DNA of 37,973 bases from Steroidobacteraceae bacterium (GTDB lineage: Bacteria; Pseudomonadota; Gammaproteobacteria; Steroidobacterales; Steroidobacteraceae): the NCBI GenBank assembly GCA_022865595.1, contig JALHTE010000287.1:1-37973 (forward strand), in the 5' to 3' direction. The position numbers were made by a program, and so were the translations under genes. A model generated the notes under the pieces. It did not search any database. It was not told the origin of the DNA and saw only the letters and a list, made by a program, of their open reading frames with translations. Positions 26,557-37,973 of this stretch are shown here, piece by piece (positions within the stretch are counted from its first letter, which is position 1; each line of letters begins with the position of its first letter).

Positions 26557-26632
<76 letters not shown>

Positions 26633-26679: not shown

Positions 26680-26753
26680 GGCTAGGTGGCAGAGTGGTCA
26701 TGCAGCGGCCTGCAAAGCCGTGTACGCCGGTTCGATTCCGACCCTAGCCTCCA
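26680..26753 (+). tRNA. cysT: tRNA-Cys (GCA)
   Basis: GGCTAGG/CCTAGCC acceptor stem, anticodon loop CTGCAAA, T-loop TTCGATT, encoded CCA. Confidence 0.97.
26740..26753 (+). repeat. Direct repeat copy 1 (tRNA-Cys 3' end), putative att core
   Basis: gaccctagcctcca, identical to 29197-29210. Confidence 0.75.
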
Positions 26754-26802
26754 AATCCACTTTTTGGATCCCCTTTGCCCCTGTTCCGGGGCGGGACGTG
26801 GG

Positions 26803-26855
26803 ACTTTGGGGTCGACTGATCATCGTTTTTTTTTCTGCAACTTGTCAGTCCCCAA
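26803..26855. repeat. Imperfect inverted repeat with a 9-T run in the loop
   Basis: actttggggtcgactga ... tcagtccccaagt; arms ACTT-GGGG-ACTGA with small bulges. Confidence 0.5.
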
Positions 26856-26886
26856 GTGCGACACGCTTTCCAGTAATGTCTGGCCG

Positions 26887-28185
26887 ATGAGCGGCCGCTC
26901 AGTCCAACGTGGTGCATCCACTCCGCCGTCATGGCTCGATGCCATGAAGGTCGGTCGCTGGTATCGCCTGTCGGGTGATCGACCGGACCTGGGGCTGCCC
27001 GCCACGAGCGTTGGTACACGCTACCTGCGCGATGGCGATCCCGCCTGCGATCCAGTCCTGAATCCTGCTCGGCGACCATACGAGGCCCTGCGGCGGCTGG
27101 CCGGACGCGCCCCTCTTGCGCCGTGGAGCGGCCGGGTCGGCTTCTCGGCGATTACGGAGGCATGGAACGGTGCTGTACTCGCAACGCGGTTTGGCGACTC
27201 CGGCTCGCTGATTATCTTCGGCGGAGGCCATAACAACTATTTCGGCTCTGATGTTCATGCTTTTGATCTCGCCACGCGGGAGTGGAGGCGAATCTCGGAC
27301 GGGTTCGTCCAGGGCAGTCCGGAGCAATACGGAGAGGGAGCGTCCTATCCGAACGCAGAGTATCCGGACGGTTCCCCGCTGCCCCCCCATACCTACGGCT
27401 ACGTGCAGTACGACGCGGTCGGCAACGACTACCTGATCTTGAAGGGCAACAGCGAGCTCGGTCCCAACGTCAAAGCAGTTGCCACACCACACATGTTCAA
27501 TCTCGACTGCCGCCAATGGCGGCGCGGTGCGGTCAACGACTCGGCCATTCTCAATTCGGGAGGATTCACGGCCTGGGACGCATCCCGGCGCGTGCTGTGG
27601 GGTCATTCCGGTGACGATGGAGGAGGTAACGCCTTCATCGGTTTTTGCCCGGACGGCGCGAATGCGGATGGCACGTTTGGCTGTTGGGGCCCGCTGCATT
27701 CAAACAAGTTCCCGGGCAATGCCAATCACAACGCGATGCAGATCGATCCCACGCGGGACATCATCGTGGTGCCGGTCCATGTGCGCGACGCCCTGTTCGG
27801 GATCAATCCCGCGGACCCCGACGCACCCGCGGTGGCCTTGAATGTGAGTGGCTCGCGGCCGCGCATCGCCGAATATGCTGCACTTGCATATGCACCGAAC
27901 CTCGACCGGCTGATCTACTACTCCGCCCGGGACGGGGCCGCGCTCCACGCCATCGCTGCGCCAAAGGGGAGGGGCTGGTCGGCCCTGACGACTGGTGAAT
28001 GGGGCTGGGAACGATGCGCGGGCGATGGATTGGACCCGATCGCAGATGCGAAGGCGAGTTCTCGCTACGCAACGAACTGGCGGCACACGTTCGGGCGGTT
28101 CCGCGTCGCAAGTTGGGGTTCGATCGACGTGGCACTACTGATCAGGCATGTCGATACCCCGGTCTATGCCCGGCGGCTAATTTGA
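26887..28185 (+). CDS. Kelch/beta-propeller (galactose-oxidase-like) repeat protein
   Basis: AWNGAVLATRFGDSGSLIIFGGGHNNYFGSDVHAFDLATREWRR and further blade-like segments. The track ORF start (26686) lies inside tRNA-Cys, so a downstream start is used. Confidence 0.7.
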   Translation: MSGRSVQRGASTPPSWLDAMKVGRWYRLSGDRPDLGLPATSVGTRYLRDGDPACDPVLNPARRPYEALRRLAGRAPLAPWSGRVGFSAITEAWNGAVLATRFGDSGSLIIFGGGHNNYFGSDVHAFDLATREWRRISDGFVQGSPEQYGEGASYPNAEYPDGSPLPPHTYGYVQYDAVGNDYLILKGNSELGPNVKAVATPHMFNLDCRQWRRGAVNDSAILNSGGFTAWDASRRVLWGHSGDDGGGNAFIGFCPDGANADGTFGCWGPLHSNKFPGNANHNAMQIDPTRDIIVVPVHVRDALFGINPADPDAPAVALNVSGSRPRIAEYAALAYAPNLDRLIYYSARDGAALHAIAAPKGRGWSALTTGEWGWERCAGDGLDPIADAKASSRYATNWRHTFGRFRVASWGSIDVALLIRHVDTPVYARRLI

Positions 28186-28325
28186 AACCCGCACGTCAGC
28201 TCGGAGCGAGCGTCGGGTAGCCCCAGAGACTCATGCCTCGATGGATGGCCCGATTTGGCCTACCCATCTGACACGGACGACTCGCTGGACGCTCGATTGG
28301 TCCACCAGCGATGACGCTTCAGACC

Positions 28326-28763
28326 CTACTGAATTCTCTTCGAGACGGGTCCCGCCTGACGGCTCTCCACGCCAGTATTGGTATACGTTGCGACGGTGAA
28401 ATACCACGTGCCAGCCGATAAATTCTCAATATGCATGGTCGTTGAACCTGGCGACGCGACATCCAAAGTCTTCGTTAACCCACCCGCCGACTGCCCGTAG
28501 CGAATCGTATAGCCCGCAATATTGGTCAGGGGCGAGCCGTCCTCGTTCTGGGTCGGGGCTGTCCAGGTCAGGTCCGCGAAACCGATGACGGAGACTGGTG
28601 TCGCGGCGGAGGGCCTCACCGGATCTGGGTACTGGGACGGAGTCGCGGTCGAAAGCAACCCGCCTGTGGAATCGCCAGACCAGTTACCGCATCCGGCCAG
28701 CGTTGCGATCAGCGCGCATACGAAAGCTCTGCTTGTCTTTCTCCCGAAAATTGTGCGCAACAT
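28326..28763 (-). CDS. Small lipoprotein with one fibronectin type III-like domain
   Basis: Lipobox ATLAGC in MLRTIFGRKTSRAFVCALIATLAGCGNWSGD; FnIII-like DLTWTAPTQNEDGSPLTNIAGYTIRYG...AGTWYFTVATYTNTGVES; upstream AGGAGGAA. Confidence 0.82.
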   Translation of the reverse strand: MLRTIFGRKTSRAFVCALIATLAGCGNWSGDSTGGLLSTATPSQYPDPVRPSAATPVSVIGFADLTWTAPTQNEDGSPLTNIAGYTIRYGQSAGGLTKTLDVASPGSTTMHIENLSAGTWYFTVATYTNTGVESRQAGPVSKRIQ

Positions 28764-28867
28764 TTCCTCCTACGGTCGTCATGTCCGTCGTCAATCGGAT
28801 TCCGCGTCCGGATTTCGAGGGACGTCGAGGATTGCAGCCGGCGCGTGGGGGCTCTCGGAGGAGATCA

Positions 28868-28968
28868 GGCGCAGATCCGGCAACCCCGCTATCCATGGCT
28901 CGAGAGTGGCCAGGACCGGAAGCTTTGCGTCCCCGCCTTTCGGCGGGTATGCCATTTACGGACGCGCC
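28868..28968 (-). ncRNA. Cyclic di-GMP-I (GEMM-I) type riboswitch upstream of the FnIII lipoprotein gene
   Basis: Minus-strand RNA: GGCGCGUCCGUAAAUGGCAUACCCGCCGAAAGGCGGGGACGCAAAGCUUCCGGUCCUGGCCACUCUCGAGCCAUGGAUAGCGGGGUUGCCGGAUCUGCGCC. Stem CCCGCC-GAAA-GGCGGG, GGGACGCAAAGC core, UAGCGGGGUUGCCG end and closing GGCGC/GCGCC all fit the GEMM-I layout. Confidence 0.85.
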
Positions 28969-29196
28969 AAGACATTTGACATATTCTCAGCGCGCAACGA
29001 CCACAGACCGGCCCGGCACAGAAAAGTTCACGCCGGTTGGAAAGGTTTGTGGTCCGGGGAGGGCGGGCCGCGTCCCTGTCGTCCGGGGACGTCCGACAGC
29101 GGCGCGATTAACGTGGGCTGGCTTTGGGGGTATGTCGCGGGAGCCACACGCGGCGACCCGCGCGGAATCAGGTGCTTAGCCCGCTTTTGGGGGCGT

Positions 29197-29210
29197 GACC
29201 CTAGCCTCCA
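29197..29210 (+). repeat. Direct repeat copy 2 of tRNA-Cys 3' end, putative att core
   Basis: gaccctagcctcca, exact 14-bp match to 26740-26753 ending at the encoded CCA. Confidence 0.75.
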
Positions 29211-29243
29211 CACCCAGCTGGCCGACATCCCTGCAGCTGGGTG
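29211..29243. repeat. Perfect 10-bp inverted repeat directly after repeat copy 2
   Basis: CACCCAGCTG-gccgacatccctg-CAGCTGGGTG. Confidence 0.75.
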
Positions 29244-29275
29244 CTGTGGCAGTGATCTCGTATTCCTAGCCATCC

Positions 29276-29294
29276 TGGCCCATCAGCTGGGCCA
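29276..29294. repeat. 7-bp hairpin downstream of the DUF2165 gene
   Basis: TGGCCCA-tcagc-TGGGCCA; no T-run. Confidence 0.5.
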
Positions 29295-29313
29295 CTTCGC
29301 TCCGGCCAGTCAG

Positions 29314-29799
29314 CTAGTCCTCCAGGCACCCTACGTAGAGAGCGATCAGGGTGACCATTGCGCCGTAGCGAAACGCGCTCTGCAGGGACAGGTCTCGCAG
29401 TACATCTGAGCGCCACATCTCGAACCATGTTTCGCCGATAACGATAAAGCCGCCGAAAAGCAGCAGCATGGCAACGCCACAACCTGCCAGCGCGGGTCTC
29501 TTCGCCACGGCAAACACTGCCGCATCGCCGGCCCGCGTTCGCCACATCTGCACAGCGCCGACAGAGCACAGGATGCCTGCGGCCAGCTTCGTCAGCATGA
29601 TCATCAGCGCTCCCATCCATATGACGACCGGACTGGAGGTTGACCTCCAGCTTTCAGCCCCGCCTTCAAAAGTGGACATCGAAGCCGCTGCGCCCACCGC
29701 GCCCATGGTTCCGTCCCAATCCGTGGCGTTTCCGAATGCGCCCAGCAGGCTCCATAAGGCCACAGATACGATCAGCAGGATTTTCGTCATTCTCAACAC
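29314..29799 (-). CDS. DUF2165 family small integral membrane protein
   Basis: MTKILLIVSVALWSLLGAFGNATDWDGTMGAVGAAASMSTFEGGAESWRSTSSPVVIWMGA..., several TM helices. Confidence 0.83.
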   Translation of the reverse strand: MLRMTKILLIVSVALWSLLGAFGNATDWDGTMGAVGAAASMSTFEGGAESWRSTSSPVVIWMGALMIMLTKLAAGILCSVGAVQMWRTRAGDAAVFAVAKRPALAGCGVAMLLLFGGFIVIGETWFEMWRSDVLRDLSLQSAFRYGAMVTLIALYVGCLED

Positions 29800-29877
29800 G
29801 GTTCTGTTCTCCCTGATGCCTCGACAGCACCACGCCGTTTATACAATATCCAGGAATGATCGGCAGCTGATCCGCTG

Positions 29878-30957
29878 CTATTCGCACTTCGCGCGCCATC
29901 GCCTCGGGCTCATGCCCGTCCACAAACGGAACGCGCGCGAAAATACAGCGGCGTCGGCGTAGCGTAGAGCCTCGGCGACCTGTGAGATCTTCAGTTGGGT
30001 ATCGCGCAACAGGTGAAACGCAAGCTCGCGTCGCACGTCGTTGGTGAGGCTACGCACCGTCGCGTCTTCCTCTGCAAGGCGACGGCGCAATGTGCGCGGG
30101 GCTACATTGAAGAGTCGTGCCAGCTTCGGCGTGGAGCCGGAGCTCGAAAAGAGCATTGCACGGATCGCACGGTGAACCTGCCGAGAGAACGGCACCGGGT
30201 CGGACGCCTCTTTGGACTGAATGGCCCGAGCTGCCGCGTTGAACGCATTGCTGCTGGCTCCTGAGATGGGCTGGTCGAGCCAGCGCGAATCGAAGATGAT
30301 CGCCGAGAGGTCCGCGTCGAACTCGAGGTTCTCGCCGAACACGGCCCGGTACGGCTTCAGCTCCGTCGGCCGCGCCCGCGAAAGCCGCACCAGTAGCGGC
30401 CGCCAGGACGGTCCGCAGAGTTCGCGCAGCAACAGGTACTGCATCGTGAGGCCGCCGTCCTGGATGTATTCCGCCCCTGGGATGACGCCGGCGAACAGCG
30501 CGTAACCCAGTGCGGTGCGCCCGTCGCCGACGTCAAGCATGAACGACATGGCGCCCTGGTCGGTGACCTGCAGGTGAGCCGTGCCGAGTGCCAGTGCCTC
30601 GCGCACTGACGTGCAGTTCTTCATGAGGCCGCCCAGTTCGCCCAGCGAGGTCGCGTCGAAGCGCCGGCCGACCAGCAGTCCGAAATGTGGGCAGTCCGTG
30701 TGGCTGGCGCAGCCTTCAAGCAGCCTGCCGAGCACGTCGCTGGGCAGGCGCGCTTCTGGATCGTCGAAGACGTCGGGGGCTGCGCCGGCAGTCGCCAGCA
30801 GTTCAGGAAAATCGAGGCCAAATTCCCGGGCCAGTGTCCGGATCTGCAGCACTGTACCGACACGGATATCGCCGGGAAAAGTCGATGCGGGGTCCCACGG
30901 CCTTGATGGACGCCTGGATCTCTTGCCGCGAGAGGCCGCCTGGTTCGTTGTCGCCAT
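29878..30957 (-). CDS. AraC family transcriptional regulator (arabinose-binding-like N-terminal domain)
   Basis: C-terminal HTH: LARLFNVAPRTLRRRLAEEDATVRSLTNDVRRELAFHLLRDTQLKISQVAEALRYADAAVFSRAFRLWTGMSPRRWRA. Start proposed at MATTNQAASRG. Confidence 0.9.
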   Translation of the reverse strand: MATTNQAASRGKRSRRPSRPWDPASTFPGDIRVGTVLQIRTLAREFGLDFPELLATAGAAPDVFDDPEARLPSDVLGRLLEGCASHTDCPHFGLLVGRRFDATSLGELGGLMKNCTSVREALALGTAHLQVTDQGAMSFMLDVGDGRTALGYALFAGVIPGAEYIQDGGLTMQYLLLRELCGPSWRPLLVRLSRARPTELKPYRAVFGENLEFDADLSAIIFDSRWLDQPISGASSNAFNAAARAIQSKEASDPVPFSRQVHRAIRAMLFSSSGSTPKLARLFNVAPRTLRRRLAEEDATVRSLTNDVRRELAFHLLRDTQLKISQVAEALRYADAAVFSRAFRLWTGMSPRRWRAKCE

Positions 30958-31195
30958 CGATCTGACCCGTTTGGCCTTAATTGCAAAGTATACCTGCAGC
31001 AACTTTAATAACCTGCGCTCCGGCGCACGAGGATTTTCTGAATTCCCGGCGGTTCGCCAGCGTGGGACACAGGCAGTACCATCGCGTACCGTCCTCGCGG
31101 GCGACGGTTGGTTGCTGCCGACCATGCCGGATTGCGGCACACCTGGCTCTCGAATAATTGATCATCAACCAACTGATCATCCACGGAGATGACCC

Positions 31196-31495
31196 ATGCT
31201 CAAGCGTTCCCTTCCAGTGTTGATGCTGCCGGCGCTTTGCCTCGGTGGCGTTGCCCAGGCCCAGGAGTTCCCGATCCTGGACGAGATCGCCCAGAAGGTG
31301 ATCGCGAAATACCAGAATGCTACTTGCGAGCAGCTGTGGGAGGAAAAGGCCCAGGGCCAGGGCAAGCCGAAGTCAGCCAAGGAGCAGCGGGTCGTCGAGG
31401 TTCTGAAAAGCGATCCGAAGATGCAGCAGGCATTCTTCAGCCAGGTCGCCACGCCCATCGTCACGAAGATGTTCCAGTGCGGGATGATCCCATGA
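31196..31495 (+). CDS. Small secreted protein of unknown function (99 aa)
   Basis: Signal peptide MLKRSLPVLMLPALCLGGVAQAQ; two Cys (ATCEQLW, MFQCGMIP); ATGA overlap with next gene. Confidence 0.8.
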   Translation: MLKRSLPVLMLPALCLGGVAQAQEFPILDEIAQKVIAKYQNATCEQLWEEKAQGQGKPKSAKEQRVVEVLKSDPKMQQAFFSQVATPIVTKMFQCGMIP

Positions 31496-32337
31496 TGCCG
31501 TCGAACGCGCGTACAGGCCGTGGAGCGGCAGTGCTCGCTTCGGCGGCGCTCGTCCTGCTGCTGCCTGCTCCGGGCGGCAGCAGCATCGCACTGGCGGCCG
31601 CTGCAGCGGCGCCAGCGATTGCCCCGCCTGCGATTGAACTTGAGCCCAGGGCCCTCGGCATCCTGAAGGGAGCCTGCGACACGCTGGCCGCGGCAAAGAC
31701 GGTCTCCTTCAAGGCAGTCGTAGCAGAGGAAAGCCCAAGCCGGCTGGGCCCGCCGCTGCTGTATTCGAGTCGCTATCAGGTCGTGCTGCAACGTCCCGAC
31801 AAGCTGCGCATCCTGAGCCCGGGTGATGGGCCGGCGACGGAGTTCTACTACGACGGCAAGTCGATGGCAGCGTTTGCGCCGAAGGAAAACTACATCGCGC
31901 GGGCCGACGCTCCGCCGACGATCGACGCGGCGCTGGACCAGGCATTCACCAGGGCGCAGATCTATTACCCGTTCATGGACCTGCTCGACGCGGATCCATA
32001 CAAGAACGTGCTGGCGGGCCTGCGCGTGGCGTTCTACATCGGCGAGTCGGAGTCCGTGGGCGGTGTGAAGACCTACATGGTCGCGTACGCGAACGACCAC
32101 GCCTTCGTGCAGGCCTGGATTGGCGTCGATGACAAGCTGCCGAGGCGGATGCGAGCGATCTATCGCAAGGACCCGGCCATGCTGCGCCACGACATGGACA
32201 TTAACGACTGGAAGCTCGGCGCGCCGCTCGCGGCCGGGACGTTTGCGGTGCCAGAGGCTGCGAAGAAGGCGCTGCCGATTCCATTTGACCGACCTGACGA
32301 CGGTGCGGCGGTGGCCGAGCCGGCGCCGAAGCCGTGA
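31492..32337 (+). CDS. DUF2092-like periplasmic protein
   Basis: Start MMPSNARTGRGAAVLASAALVLLLPAPGGSSIALA; LYSSRYQVVLQRPDKLRILSPGDGPATEFYYDGKSMAAFAPKENYIA. Confidence 0.77.
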   Translation: MMPSNARTGRGAAVLASAALVLLLPAPGGSSIALAAAAAAPAIAPPAIELEPRALGILKGACDTLAAAKTVSFKAVVAEESPSRLGPPLLYSSRYQVVLQRPDKLRILSPGDGPATEFYYDGKSMAAFAPKENYIARADAPPTIDAALDQAFTRAQIYYPFMDLLDADPYKNVLAGLRVAFYIGESESVGGVKTYMVAYANDHAFVQAWIGVDDKLPRRMRAIYRKDPAMLRHDMDINDWKLGAPLAAGTFAVPEAAKKALPIPFDRPDDGAAVAEPAPKP

Positions 32338-33014
32338 GCTGGGAGATGACCATGAAGAACATCGTGATAACGGTCGGTGCGGTGCTGGCAATCGGCCTGG
32401 CACCGCAGTTCGCCGGGGCCTATACGCACCGGAATCGCGCAGGCGGCAGCACCGAGCATGCCTACGGGCAGGGCACTGAGCATACGAACGCATACGGCGG
32501 GAGCACGGAGCATGCCTACGGAGGCGGAACCGAGCACACCAACATGTACGGCGGGTCCACCGAAGGCAAGTACGGCGACGGCGCCGAGCACACGAACGTG
32601 TACGGTGGTACGACGTCGGCTCGGTACGGATCGGGCGCGTATCACTCCACTCCCTACGGTGCGACGGTGTACGCACCTCCGCCGCCCGGCGCATACGCAT
32701 ATCACCCGCCCGCCACGGTCAATTACTACGGCGCCGGTTGCTACAACTGCGGTGGCTACAGCACGGCGGGCGCCGTCGCAGCCGGCGTGGTCGTGGGCGC
32801 CGCTGTGGGTGCGGCTGCGGCCGAGTCCGCAAGCACGACGACGACTACCACCACTACCACGACCTACGTCGTCGGGGACGTGTATCCGACGCTTCCGAGC
32901 GGATGCGCAATGCCCAAGGTTGACGGCACGACGTACTACCTCTGCGGCAACACCTGGTTCCAGCCGAGCTACGGCGCGAACGGCGTGTACTACAAGGTTG
33001 TAACGGCCCCCTGA
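32334..33014 (+). CDS. Secreted Gly/Tyr/Thr-rich tandem-repeat protein
   Basis: Signal MKNIVITVGAVLAIGLAPQFAGA; four 18-aa repeats; C-terminal YPTLPSGCAMPKVDGTTYYLCGNTWFQPSYGANGVYYKVV. Start may be 32346 or 32352. Confidence 0.75.
   Translation: MSWEMTMKNIVITVGAVLAIGLAPQFAGAYTHRNRAGGSTEHAYGQGTEHTNAYGGSTEHAYGGGTEHTNMYGGSTEGKYGDGAEHTNVYGGTTSARYGSGAYHSTPYGATVYAPPPPGAYAYHPPATVNYYGAGCYNCGGYSTAGAVAAGVVVGAAVGAAAAESASTTTTTTTTTTYVVGDVYPTLPSGCAMPKVDGTTYYLCGNTWFQPSYGANGVYYKVVTAP
32442..32657 (+). repeat. Four 54-bp (18-aa) coding tandem repeats
   Basis: GGSTEHAYGQGTEHTNAY / GGSTEHAYGGGTEHTNMY / GGSTEGKYGDGAEHTNVY / GGTTSARYGSGAYHSTPY. Confidence 0.9.
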
Positions 33015-33029
33015 GCCGGCGGCGAGCCG

Positions 33030-33266
33030 ATGCGCCGCATCGAGGCCAACGGCCTGATCCTGCCGCGGCGCTGGCCGTCGATCAGCGTGCCGACGCTGGG
33101 GGTATGGAGCGACGGCGACCTGTTTCTCGCAGAGTCGCAGATGATCGAATCGCAGAACTACGTCGATGGACCCTGGCGTTACGAGCGGGTTGACGGTGCG
33201 AACCACTGGCTGCAGTTGACCGCGCCCGAGCGTGTGAACGCGCTGCTGCTCGACTATCTGCACTGA
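33030..33266 (+). pseudogene. C-terminal remnant of an alpha/beta hydrolase
   Basis: PSISVPTLGVWSDGDLFLAESQM...YERVDGANHWLQLTAPERVNALLLDYLH: acid and His region only; nucleophile-elbow half absent. Confidence 0.6.
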
Positions 33267-33456
33267 TGCGCGCTACCCGCGCAGCGAGAGACGTTTGCTT
33301 TTAAGCTGTGGCTGGTTCAGCGAGCACTCGATATGATCGCGGCGTTGCCGGCAGCCGACGCTGCGCGGGCGCGGCAGTGGCTCGCCGACTGCGGGGGGGC
33401 ACGCCTGTTGCAACTCGACATTCCTCGTGTCGAGGTCTCTGGCCTGACACCCCGAT

Positions 33457-34116
33457 TTGCGTGAGGGATCCTTGGACCTGACAGCCTGTCCGGACTGCGA
33501 CCTGCTGCAGACGCTGCCCGAACTGGAACCCGGCAGCCGGGCGTGTTGCGCGCGCTGCGGGCACGTCCTGGTGGTGAGGGCTGAGGATCCCATCACGCGT
33601 CCGCTTGCGCTCTCCGTCGCGGCCGCAATCCTGCTCGTCATCGCCAACACCATGCCGATGATGAGCATGTCGGTGATTGGCCGGCATGCGAGCACGACGA
33701 TACTCGGCGGCTGCCTGAAGATGTGGCAAACGGGCCAGCCGATCACCGCGGTGCTGGTGGCATTCTGCGCACTGGTTGCCCCGGCATTGTTCGTGCTGTT
33801 CCTGCTGGCCGTGCTGCTGGCCGCGCGCCGTCCGCCCGCTCCGCCATGGGTGGGCGAGTTGCTGCGTTGGTCTGAATTCCTGCAGCCATGGGCAATGGTC
33901 GAGGTGATGATGCTCGGCGTGCTGGTTGCGCTGGTAAAGATTGCCGAGCTCGCGACGGTCGAGCCTGGGCTCGGGATGTTCGCGATCTTCGGCCTGATGA
34001 TTCTCTTTCCTGCGATAGCGACAGGTTTCGATGAGGATGCAATCTGGCGGCGGGTCACCTGGGCGGACGGAGAGTTGCCGCACACATCGTCGAGTCCACC
34101 GTTGGCCACGCCATGA
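33457..34116 (+). CDS. pqiA: Paraquat-inducible protein A (N-terminal-half homologue)
   Basis: CPDCDLLQTLPELEPGSRACCARCGHVL zinc-ribbon-like motif; PqiA TM segments. TTG start. Confidence 0.88.
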   Translation: MREGSLDLTACPDCDLLQTLPELEPGSRACCARCGHVLVVRAEDPITRPLALSVAAAILLVIANTMPMMSMSVIGRHASTTILGGCLKMWQTGQPITAVLVAFCALVAPALFVLFLLAVLLAARRPPAPPWVGELLRWSEFLQPWAMVEVMMLGVLVALVKIAELATVEPGLGMFAIFGLMILFPAIATGFDEDAIWRRVTWADGELPHTSSSPPLATP

Positions 34117-34754
34117 GCCGGAAACTGTTTTCTGCTGCGCACGCCGGGCTCGTGTGCTGTGAAACCTGCAGCCTGGTGGCGAAGCCCGTGAATCGCCAGG
34201 AGCCAGGGCATTGCCCACGTTGCGGATCTGAGCTGGAATGGCGCCGCAAGGCGTCGATAGAGACGACCTGGGCGCTGCTGGTCGCGGCCGCCGTCTGTTT
34301 TCTCCCGGCCAACCTTTTGCCGGTGATGGAGACCACGACCATGGGCTCGACCGAACCCGACACGATCATGGGCGGCGTCGTGCTGCTCTATCAGACGGGT
34401 TCGTGGCCACTTGCGCTGATCGTACTGGTTGCGAGCTTCATGGTCCCGCTCGGGAAGCTGATTGCGCTTACCTACCTGCTGGTCTCGGTGCAGCGTGGAT
34501 CCTCAGCGAGCAACCAGGAGCGGACGCGCCTGTACAGGATGGTCGAGATCATCGGCCGCTGGTCGATGCTCGATGTGTTCGTGGACACATTTACGGTCGC
34601 CCTGGTGCAGCTCGATCCTCTCATGTCGATCGTGCCGGGGCCGGGCGTGTTGTTCTTTGCGGCCGTGGTCGTGCTTACCATGATCGCTGCTGAAACTTTC
34701 GATCCGCGCCTCATCTGGGATGGCGGCGCACGACAGGAGACCCGCCATGGCTGA
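34113..34754 (+). CDS. pqiA: Paraquat-inducible protein A (second-half homologue)
   Basis: CCETCSLVAKPVNRQEPGHCPRCGSELEWRRKASIETTWALLVAAAVCFLPANLLPVM; ATGA overlap with upstream gene. Confidence 0.9.
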   Translation: MSRKLFSAAHAGLVCCETCSLVAKPVNRQEPGHCPRCGSELEWRRKASIETTWALLVAAAVCFLPANLLPVMETTTMGSTEPDTIMGGVVLLYQTGSWPLALIVLVASFMVPLGKLIALTYLLVSVQRGSSASNQERTRLYRMVEIIGRWSMLDVFVDTFTVALVQLDPLMSIVPGPGVLFFAAVVVLTMIAAETFDPRLIWDGGARQETRHG

Positions 34755-36396
34755 GCCCTATTCCGACAACGAGCTGCCGCAGGCTCGTGTGACTCCCGGC
34801 AGGCGGAAGCGGATCTCCGTAATCTGGATCATCCCGATCCTGGCCGCCGTGGTCGCGCTCGGAATTGCCATCAATCGGATCATGAAGGAGGGCCCGACGA
34901 TCACCATCGAGTTCCGCGAGGCCCAGGGTATTGAGGCCGGCAAGACATTCATCAAGTACAAGGACGTGAATATCGGGCAGGTGAGCAAGATCGAGCTGTC
35001 CAGCGACTTCTCGAGGGTCAAGGTCACCGCGAAGATCACCAAGGACGCGGAGGACCTGATGACCGAGGATGCGCGATTCTGGGTGGTCGAGCCGCGCATC
35101 TCGATGAGCGGAGTGTCGGGCCTCAGCACGCTGCTTTCCGGAAACTACATCGGTTTTGCGGAAGGAAGGTCGAAGAAGTCCGGACGCAGTTATGTCGGTT
35201 TGGAGGTGGCGCCGATCGTTTCCGGCCAGCCCGGCCGCGAATTCCTGCTGACCGCCGCGGCGCTCGGCTCGTTCGGCGTAGGCTCGCCGGTATATTTCCG
35301 GCGCATCGCCGTTGGGCAGGTCACGTCCTATGAGCTGGCGCCGGACGGCAAGGCGATCCAGCTGAAGGTTTTCGTCAATTCGCCCTACGAGAAATACGTC
35401 AACCCGGAAACACGCTTCTGGAACGCCAGCGGTATCGACATGTCGGTCGGGGCGAACGGCGTGGACATTCGCACCGAGTCGCTGGTGGCACTGCTGGCAG
35501 GCGGTGTGGCCTTCGAAACACCGAGTTATGCGAAAGTCGATGGACCCGCCGCGGCGGGAACCGGGTTCACGCTATACCGCGACCAGGCGACTGCGATGAA
35601 GCAACCCGAGGCAATTGCGCGGAAATTCGTCCTGTATTTCGACGAGTCGTTGCGCGGCCTTTCGGTCGAGGCACCGGTCCTTATGCTCGGGCTGCCGGCC
35701 GGCGAGGTCACCGCCGTCGGCCTCGAGGTCGACCTCAAGGCCGATCGCCCCAGGGGTCGCGTGGAAATCGTTGCCTACCCCGACCGACTCATCACGCGGC
35801 TGGGTGGAGCGGGCGCCGCGGACGCCGCGGACATGGCCAGGGGTAAAGCGGTTCGCGAAGCGTATTTCAACCGGCTGGTAGAGCAGCAGGGTCTCCGGGC
35901 ACAGTTGCGCAGTGGCAACCTGCTCACGGGCGAGCGCTATGTAGCTCTCGACTTTTTCCCGGATGTCCCGGAGGCCGTGATCGACTGGAACCTTGCAGAA
36001 CCCGTCATGCCGACGATCCCGAGCGCGTTGCCGGAACTCGAGGCAAAGCTTGGCAGCATAATGACCAAGCTCGACAGCCTCCCGTACAAGGCGATCGGCG
36101 AGAACTTCAATACCACGCTCGAAACCGTCAACGAATTGCTCGCGCGCTGGGACAAGGACCTGACGCCGGAGCTGAAGGGGGCATTGGTGGACATGCGTGC
36201 CGCAATGACCAAGGCGGACCGATTGCTGGATAACGCCAATACCAACATTACCGGTCCCGATGCTCCGACTCAGCAGGCATTGAAGGATGCGCTGGACGAG
36301 GTGTCGCGTGCGGCGCGCTCATTCCGCGACCTCACCGATTACCTGGAGCGCCATCCGGAGGCGCTGATCCGCGGCAAGGACGAGGAGAAGAACTGA
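34747..36396 (+). CDS. pqiB: MCE-domain intermembrane transport protein PqiB
   Basis: Single TM IISVIWIIP-type segment then MCE repeats (TITIEFREAQGIEAGKTFIKYKDVNIGQVSKIEL). Start at MAEPYSDNELPQA. Confidence 0.93.
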   Translation: MAEPYSDNELPQARVTPGRRKRISVIWIIPILAAVVALGIAINRIMKEGPTITIEFREAQGIEAGKTFIKYKDVNIGQVSKIELSSDFSRVKVTAKITKDAEDLMTEDARFWVVEPRISMSGVSGLSTLLSGNYIGFAEGRSKKSGRSYVGLEVAPIVSGQPGREFLLTAAALGSFGVGSPVYFRRIAVGQVTSYELAPDGKAIQLKVFVNSPYEKYVNPETRFWNASGIDMSVGANGVDIRTESLVALLAGGVAFETPSYAKVDGPAAAGTGFTLYRDQATAMKQPEAIARKFVLYFDESLRGLSVEAPVLMLGLPAGEVTAVGLEVDLKADRPRGRVEIVAYPDRLITRLGGAGAADAADMARGKAVREAYFNRLVEQQGLRAQLRSGNLLTGERYVALDFFPDVPEAVIDWNLAEPVMPTIPSALPELEAKLGSIMTKLDSLPYKAIGENFNTTLETVNELLARWDKDLTPELKGALVDMRAAMTKADRLLDNANTNITGPDAPTQQALKDALDEVSRAARSFRDLTDYLERHPEALIRGKDEEKN

Positions 36397-36992
36397 TGCG
36401 AAGATACATTAATCGGGTACTGCTGCCCGCCACGCTTGCGGTCCTGGCGGGCTGTTCGTCCACGCCGGCTTCGCAGTTCTACACCTTGAGCGCGGTCGCT
36501 GGCGCGGGCGCACCTCCGGCGACCAGCGTAGCGGTGGTCGTAGGGCCCGTTTCCGTTCCGGCATCCGTTGACCGGCCGCAGATCGTGGTGACGGCCGGCG
36601 CGAACCAGGTGCAGCTCGATGAATTCAATCGCTGGGCATCGCCGCTGCGGGATGCAATCGCGGTGACGCTGGCGAGCGACCTCGCGGCAGACCTCGGCAC
36701 ACCTGACGTAACGACGCTGTCGGGCGGCGACGTGCAGGCGGCCCAATACCGGGTCGTCGTAGATGTGCTGCGTTTCGACTCCACGCCGGGTACTTCCGCG
36801 GTGCTGGAAGCCGCGTGGCGTGTTCGGCGGGTGAAGGACGAGAAGTCCGAGTCCGGACGGACCAGTGTCCGTGAGCCGCTGCAACAGGCGGGGTACGGGC
36901 CGCTCGCCGCTGGCCACAGTCGCGCCGTTGCCCGACTCGCGCAAGACATAGCAACCGCGATCCGGTCACTCGAGGCGGCACCGGCCCAGTAG
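36396..36992 (+). CDS. pqiC: PqiC-like outer-membrane lipoprotein
   Basis: Lipobox LAVLAGCSSTPASQFYTLSAV; position after pqiB. Confidence 0.9.
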   Translation: MRRYINRVLLPATLAVLAGCSSTPASQFYTLSAVAGAGAPPATSVAVVVGPVSVPASVDRPQIVVTAGANQVQLDEFNRWASPLRDAIAVTLASDLAADLGTPDVTTLSGGDVQAAQYRVVVDVLRFDSTPGTSAVLEAAWRVRRVKDEKSESGRTSVREPLQQAGYGPLAAGHSRAVARLAQDIATAIRSLEAAPAQ

Positions 36993-37114
36993 CGGGGCCG
37001 CGAATCGTGACGTTGCTTGCAGGAGCCGGCCCCACGAGAGCCGGCCTCGAGGGATATCATGGCCGTCCCCAGGGAGCGCGCGGCCGAGCGCGCCGGCCCC
37101 AAGCGAGCCAGCCC

Positions 37115-37973
37115 ATGAAGACTAGTTCCTTGACGACTGGACTGTTGGCGGCAGTTTTTGCCTGTGTCGCCGCAGCGGCGCCAGGGTCCGCGCCGGTGGC
37201 GAATCCATCACTGGACTATCCAGGCGGTGGCCAGGTGCGTGTGATCGTGAAGCTGCGCGGCGCGGGCGCGACACGCGGCTCACGCTTGGTCGTCGACGAC
37301 CCGGACGTAGCGTCGCTCGCCAGCCGCACTGGTGTTCCGCTCCGGCAGAGCCGCAGGATCGAATCAAGGCTTCGCGTGCTGGAACTCGGCGTCCTGGCGG
37401 CCCCCGGGTCCATTGAGCCAGCGCTCGAGGCGCTGCGGGCCGATCCGACCGTACAGTACGCGGAGCTCGACCGGCGGCGGTATGCGCACGCGATACCCAA
37501 CGACACGCTTTTTCCGGGGCAGTGGTACCTGCAAAACGCGCCTGCTGCGCCGAGCGCGGTCGACGCCGTCAGTGCCTGGGATATTTCCACCGGCGGCACC
37601 GGGGTCGTGATCGCGGTGCTCGATACCGGTGTGCGTTACGAGCACCCGGACCTGGCGCTGGCAGGGGCGGGCGGCCGGCTGCTGCCTGGATTCGACTTTG
37701 TTTCGGAACGCAAGCTCGCGAACGACAACGACGGCTGGGACCTTGACGCGTCGGACCCGGGCGACTGGGTGACGGACAATGAAGTGTCCTCGCTGCCGTT
37801 CGATGGCTGCCAGGCGAGCGGCAGTACCTGGCACGGAACCCGCGTCTCAGGGATCATCGCTGCGCGCAGCAACAACGCGCGCGGGGTCGCCGGCCTCGCA
37901 TGGCAGGGCTGGATCCTGCCGGTGCGGGTGCTTGGCAAGTGCGGCGGCTATGACTCAGACATCGTCGCCGGGA
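37115..37973 (+). CDS. Secreted S8 (subtilisin-like) serine peptidase, truncated by window end
   Basis: Signal peptide MKTSSLTTGLLAAVFACVAAAAPG; VIAVLDTGVRYEHPDL (Asp) and WHGTRVSGIIAA (His); frame open to window end. Confidence 0.92.
   Translation, partial: MKTSSLTTGLLAAVFACVAAAAPGSAPVANPSLDYPGGGQVRVIVKLRGAGATRGSRLVVDDPDVASLASRTGVPLRQSRRIESRLRVLELGVLAAPGSIEPALEALRADPTVQYAELDRRRYAHAIPNDTLFPGQWYLQNAPAAPSAVDAVSAWDISTGGTGVVIAVLDTGVRYEHPDLALAGAGGRLLPGFDFVSERKLANDNDGWDLDASDPGDWVTDNEVSSLPFDGCQASGSTWHGTRVSGIIAARSNNARGVAGLAWQGWILPVRVLGKCGGYDSDIVAG

Follow-up and report, generated by a model that had tools for sequence, protein, structure and literature searches.

Integrases that act at tRNA genes can leave a direct repeat of the tRNA 3' end, and the locus analyzed here raises the question of whether such a repeat is enough to recognize an inserted element. 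The window, i.e. the whole stretch of DNA that was analyzed (37,973 nucleotides from a Steroidobacteraceae bacterium), carries genes for tRNA-Gly(gcc) and tRNA-Cys(gca) downstream of uvrC-pgsA. The last 14 bases of tRNA-Cys(GCA), GACCCTAGCCTCCA, recur exactly on the same strand 2.46 kb downstream, and the second copy also ends at the CCA; these positions, proposed in an initial annotation of the window, were confirmed exactly (Table 1). In that annotation the DNA at 26754-29210 was read as an inserted unit, an islet bounded by the two copies.

Table 1. Features of the tRNA-Cys locus, in window coordinates
Feature	Position	Strand	Basis
tRNA-Gly(gcc)	26557..26632	+	ARAGORN, Rfam
tRNA-Cys(gca), intact, CCA encoded	26680..26753	+	ARAGORN; several relatives carry an identical tRNA
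Left copy of the 14-mer, tRNA-Cys 3' end	26740..26753	+	Exact sequence match
41 bp after the tRNA 3' end, shared with sister G008	26754..26794	+	BLASTN, shuffle test
Species-specific block, from conserved tRNA-Cys trailer to conserved S8 protease gene	26795..37115		No homologous genes in G008/G006; no good DNA match within the genus
Kelch-type beta-propeller protein gene (432 aa)	26887..28185	+	Pfam Kelch_4 above cut-off
fn3-domain lipoprotein-like gene	28326..28763	-	Pfam fn3 27.9 bits, cut-off 25; lipoprotein signal by eye
c-di-GMP-I-GGC riboswitch aptamer, upstream of fn3 gene	28875..28962	-	RF03167, 66.6 bits, gathering 59
Right copy of the 14-mer	29197..29210	+	Exact sequence match
17-nt imperfect inverted repeat overlapping the right copy	29204..29250		Folds only slightly better than shuffles, z = -1.8
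DUF2165 membrane protein gene	29314..29799	-	Pfam PF09933
AraC-family regulator gene	29878..31140	-	Pfam PF12625 + HTH_18
5' part of subtilisin-like (S8) protease gene	37116..37973	+	Synteny with G008 resumes; S8 identity by eye

The repeat and the genes between its copies

Across the 3.09-Mb assembly GACCCTAGCCTCCA occurs exactly two times, and the reversed pattern used as a control does not occur; within the window no additional copy was found when up to 3 mismatches were allowed. The initial annotation had stated that a 14-mer dispersed for other reasons would speak against an insertion, and with only two copies genome-wide this reading was ruled out. A 14-bp direct repeat as such is ordinary in this DNA, because the window contains 14 such pairs (maximal direct repeats, 14 bp or longer). 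From base composition, the chance of a given 14-mer is 3e-5 in 5 kb and 5e-4 across the two strands of the window; the counted rate of same-strand recurrence within 5 kb, obtained from ordinary loci without tandem arrays, is ~1.3e-4 to 3e-4 per 14-mer, above the composition-based figure. The sole unusual aspect of the repeat is its register with the CCA end of the tRNA, which has a probability of roughly 1e-4 to 1e-3 by chance. The inverted repeat that overlaps the right copy was considered as an element end or a terminator and rejected, given that its fold is weak and it has no dispersed copies.

The two copies enclose the Kelch gene and the fn3 gene. None of the eight congeners has the Kelch gene, and among 120 genomes searched in the family only remote matches were found, in 3 other genomes. 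Its product is 80% identical in amino acids (82% in nucleotides) to that of a gene in a MAG labelled Deltaproteobacteria (L135), the similarity being confined to the coding sequence, and 66% and 61% identical in amino acids to two other proteins (L136, L137). Because a relative this close is found in the Deltaproteobacteria-labelled MAG and none in the congeners, the Kelch gene was probably acquired horizontally, with the caveat of a possible mis-binning of that MAG; its foreignness to the genus agrees with the initial annotation. The possibility that the islet is phage or plasmid cargo was discarded, since searches of phage and plasmid collections gave nothing similar to the Kelch protein. 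The fn3 gene has homologues in the genus at 35-49% amino acid identity, and the riboswitch, which scores above the gathering threshold, lies on the same strand ~111 nt before its start codon. Riboswitches of the c-di-GMP-I-GGC class are also found near fn3 genes elsewhere in several members of the genus (loci L163-L171). Because riboswitches of the same class adjoin fn3 genes in these members, the riboswitch-fn3 module can be assigned to a genus-resident type, and the distribution of the copies suggests a predicted family of c-di-GMP-controlled surface proteins.

Flanks of the repeat and extent of the variable DNA

Tyrosine integrases that target tRNA genes place the element DNA after the left copy of the repeat, and the native downstream DNA follows the right copy. 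The comparison with the sister G008, whose contig begins inside the tRNA, gave the opposite outcome, given that the left flank matches and the right flank does not. On the left side, BLASTN aligned 26699-26794 with 90.7% identity, and the 41 bp after tRNA-Cys reached an alignment score of 35 that was equalled in 0/5000 shuffles; G004 showed a weak similarity in this flank (uncorrected p 0.025). Because G008 shares the bases that follow the left copy, 26754-26794 looks native, presumably a trailer or terminator, and not element DNA or a shared element arm. An arm of the type present in g19, another genus of the same family, was ruled out, as the left flank has no similarity to the g19 element arms. 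On the right side, the 100 bp after 29210 aligned to G008 no better than shuffled sequence.

When the DNA from 29211 was compared with the 27 distinct post-tRNA-Cys sequences of relatives, no convincing match was obtained (best uncorrected p 0.03), and an empty site, i.e. a 26753/29211 junction, was found in none of the 27. The site is readable in five congeners only (G003, G004, G006, G007, with a diverged tRNA-Cys, and G008), in a comparison that runs across species, over fragmented assemblies (393 contigs in the source genome) whose contigs may be broken or wrongly joined at a 74-nt tRNA that relatives share identically. The genome G001 was considered as an empty-site control and set aside, since the contig stops short of tRNA-Cys and the tRNA-Leu of this genome is in a different context. 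The initial annotation had proposed to look for this junction, and had named as an argument against an islet its lack in relatives that are devoid of the Kelch and lipoprotein genes; this is what was found in the five readable congeners, and because of it the bounded islet fails by that measure.

The DNA that differs from the relatives extends well beyond the right copy. Homologues of the genes of the block were sought in the equivalent DNA of G008 (14.5 kb) and G006 (~11.6 kb), and none were found. In G008, 14.6 kb with entirely different genes separate tRNA-Cys from the S8 protease gene, and in G006 tRNA-Cys is followed by yet other genes. The ends of the block are approximate (~26795 to ~37115), and the right copy of the 14-mer lies inside it. 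The contig C116 of the source genome (G000) appears to continue the window, with the S8 protease gene split between both contig ends, and from this gene onward it is syntenic with G008:C136. That the DNA downstream of tRNA-Cys is species-specific was borne out against the congeners; nonetheless, the segments 29211-37115 and 26754-29196 are equally foreign to the genus, and because of this position 29210 is best regarded as an interior point and not as a boundary. The tetranucleotide composition, which had been suggested as a further check, gave a divided answer: the islet is the most atypical segment (0.347, with a background maximum of 0.255 and values of 0.19-0.26 in the three segments to its right), but the atypicality does not stop at 29210.

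Integrases and the tRNA-Cys end in the family

In a genome-wide search, two tyrosine recombinases of the source genome matched PF00589 above threshold; both matches are strong, are located on other contigs, resemble those found in the sisters and are presumed to be XerC and XerD. No element-type integrase was above threshold in this search.

The 14-mer was also searched in 217 genomes of the family, with a reversed control that gave two matches, and second copies were detected in several genomes of g19. In G097, G107, G149 and G186, which belong to g19, and in G009, from another genus, the second copies are fragments of 15-23 bp of the tRNA-Cys 3' end, and G068 carries longer partial copies of tRNA-Cys. 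The direct repeats at the tRNA-Cys end in g19 range from 15 to ~45 bp (loci L140, L141, L144, L146, L153, L155). In G097, G149 and G180, genes encoding P4-type integrases (Arm-DNA-bind_3, Phage_int_M, Phage_integrase) start ~170-200 bp after a CCA end; the one in G097 is truncated and located 195 bp after the CCA, with 11 kb between the copies, and the complete enzymes of G149 and G180, the two that were compared, are 80% identical. In G107 the copies are separated by 3.3 kb in which no integrase was detected, and a further tyrosine recombinase is encoded near tRNA-Cys in G135. Because g19 shows repeats of the 3' end together with P4-type integrases beside the tRNA, the tRNA-Cys 3' end is a real integrase target in this family, and integration with direct repeats, invoked for the window as a general principle, is seen in g19 at the same tRNA end.

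The locus shares with the P4 islands of the G097:C11 type a same-strand downstream repeat of the tRNA 3' end that ends at the CCA, and foreign cargo between the copies; in contrast, here there is no integrase, the repeat has only 14 bp, the left flank looks native, the empty site is missing and the right side is non-native. The islet of 3.3 kb in G107:C105 is closer in size, occurs at the same tRNA and also has no integrase detected between the copies; it differs in its 18-bp repeat, in the presence of several element-type integrases in its genome and in an integrase-like ORF, unmatched in Pfam, that lies past the second copy. The window also resembles regions of genomic plasticity, given that the conserved flanks, the tRNA-Cys trailer and the S8 protease gene, enclose unrelated content in G000 and G008. 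Compared with an integrative element at a tRNA 3' end, the window has the direct repeat (14 bp, unique in the genome; 15-45 bp in g19) and an insert that is absent from close relatives, but these relatives also lack the DNA to the right of 29210; no empty site was found among the relatives, no integrase is encoded beside the tRNA, and the place of element DNA next to attL is occupied by 41 bp conserved in G008 that are putatively native.

Origin of the second copy and rearrangements around tRNA-Cys

We favor, with moderate confidence, the interpretation that the recurrence of the 14-mer is a fortuitous match inside a variable region and does not represent the ends of an integrated islet, because the left flank is conserved, the empty site is missing, the right side is foreign and no element integrase was detected. 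The likelihoods expressed here are our judgement and not computed probabilities. Under this interpretation tRNA-Cys and its immediate 41-bp 3' flank would be intact and native, and the block from ~26795 to ~37115 would have been built up or exchanged within this lineage through a process from which no integrase remains; the block would have taken in the acquired Kelch gene and the riboswitch-associated fn3 lipoprotein gene of a genus-resident family, and a copy of the last 14 bases of tRNA-Cys would fall inside it by chance. Four observations count against a fortuitous match: the improbable register with the CCA, the att repeats of g19 that go down to 15 bp, the composition of the islet as the most atypical segment, and the break between G003 and G004 described below.

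The same observations can be accommodated, more doubtfully, by a decayed islet that lost its integrase and retained 2.44 kb of cargo between attL, in the tRNA, and a 14-bp attR, the flank shared with G008 being then an element arm present in both genomes. The second copy is unique in the genome, lies on the same strand and ends exactly at the CCA; the att repeats of 15-45 bp at the same tRNA end in g19 (G097 and G107, with fragments in G068, G149 and G186) set prior odds that favor a relic att site, and the Kelch gene looks acquired in a segment where the k-mer atypicality peaks. However, the left flank conserved in G008 is unlike any g19 arm, the right flank follows tRNA-Cys in no relative, no element integrase was detected in the source genome, the atypical composition runs past 29210 and the 14-bp core is shorter than every att repeat seen in g19. 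The initial interpretation is in consequence partly supported: the species-specific DNA, the acquired Kelch gene and the use of the tRNA-Cys end as a target in g19 stand, and the bounded islet does not, considering that its left flank is common to G008, that no 26753/29211 junction was found and that the DNA to its right is equally absent from the sisters. We consider it very unlikely that the locus represents a minimal integrase-less islet, mobilized at tRNA-Cys via a 14-bp core and carrying a Kelch gene and the gene of a putatively c-di-GMP-controlled surface lipoprotein, in a genus mostly without detected element integrases in the members searched.

It is also quite unlikely that the second copy is left over from an event that has no relation to the ends of the present Kelch/fn3 segment, either a duplication of part of the tRNA-Cys 3' end or an older island that has since been rearranged. 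The partial tRNA-Cys copies in G068 and the rearrangement of the locus across the genus (evident in the position of tRNA-Leu(UAA)) speak for such an origin; against it, the sequence that precedes the 14 bases shows, by eye, no remaining resemblance to a tRNA, nor is there independent evidence.

With the fortuitous match as the preferred interpretation, the finding is mostly ordinary, a 14-mer within a larger stretch of DNA that differs between species; if the islet were true, it would be a further small islet associated with a tRNA, and its interest would be local. The locus illustrates that a textbook-looking att repeat at a tRNA end can fail once the flanks are compared with relatives, in a family that itself supplies the positive control of the same tRNA end as a true integrase target.

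Other rearrangements were observed around tRNA-Cys in the relatives. G003 and G004 (L050/L051; G003:C174, G004:C29) are 91.6% identical through pgsA-tRNA-Gly-tRNA-Cys and diverge completely at CCA+1, which suggests that there are breakpoints at tRNA-Cys in this genus too; integration, rearrangement or a contig mis-join are possible causes. As proof of integration this break was rejected, since the DNA that follows tRNA-Cys in G003 contains a gene that occurs elsewhere in most congeners and the shared tRNA can make chimeric contigs. The tRNA-Leu(UAA) gene adjoins tRNA-Cys in many relatives, and in G000, G006 and G008 it has the inverted orientation and lies at a distance of >10 kb; it is located at G000:C116:5760-5846 and G006:C16:23119-23205, near a FadR-like gene (by eye), and G007 has one copy adjoining tRNA-Cys and a second copy. 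In G008 (G008:C136:21281-21632; L111:4282-4633, minus strand) tRNA-Leu(UAA) is split after the first anticodon base by an insert of 265 nt that ends in G; the insert sits where group I introns of tRNA-Leu(UAA) are known to occur, and a comparison with Rfam at E values up to 1 gave no group I match.
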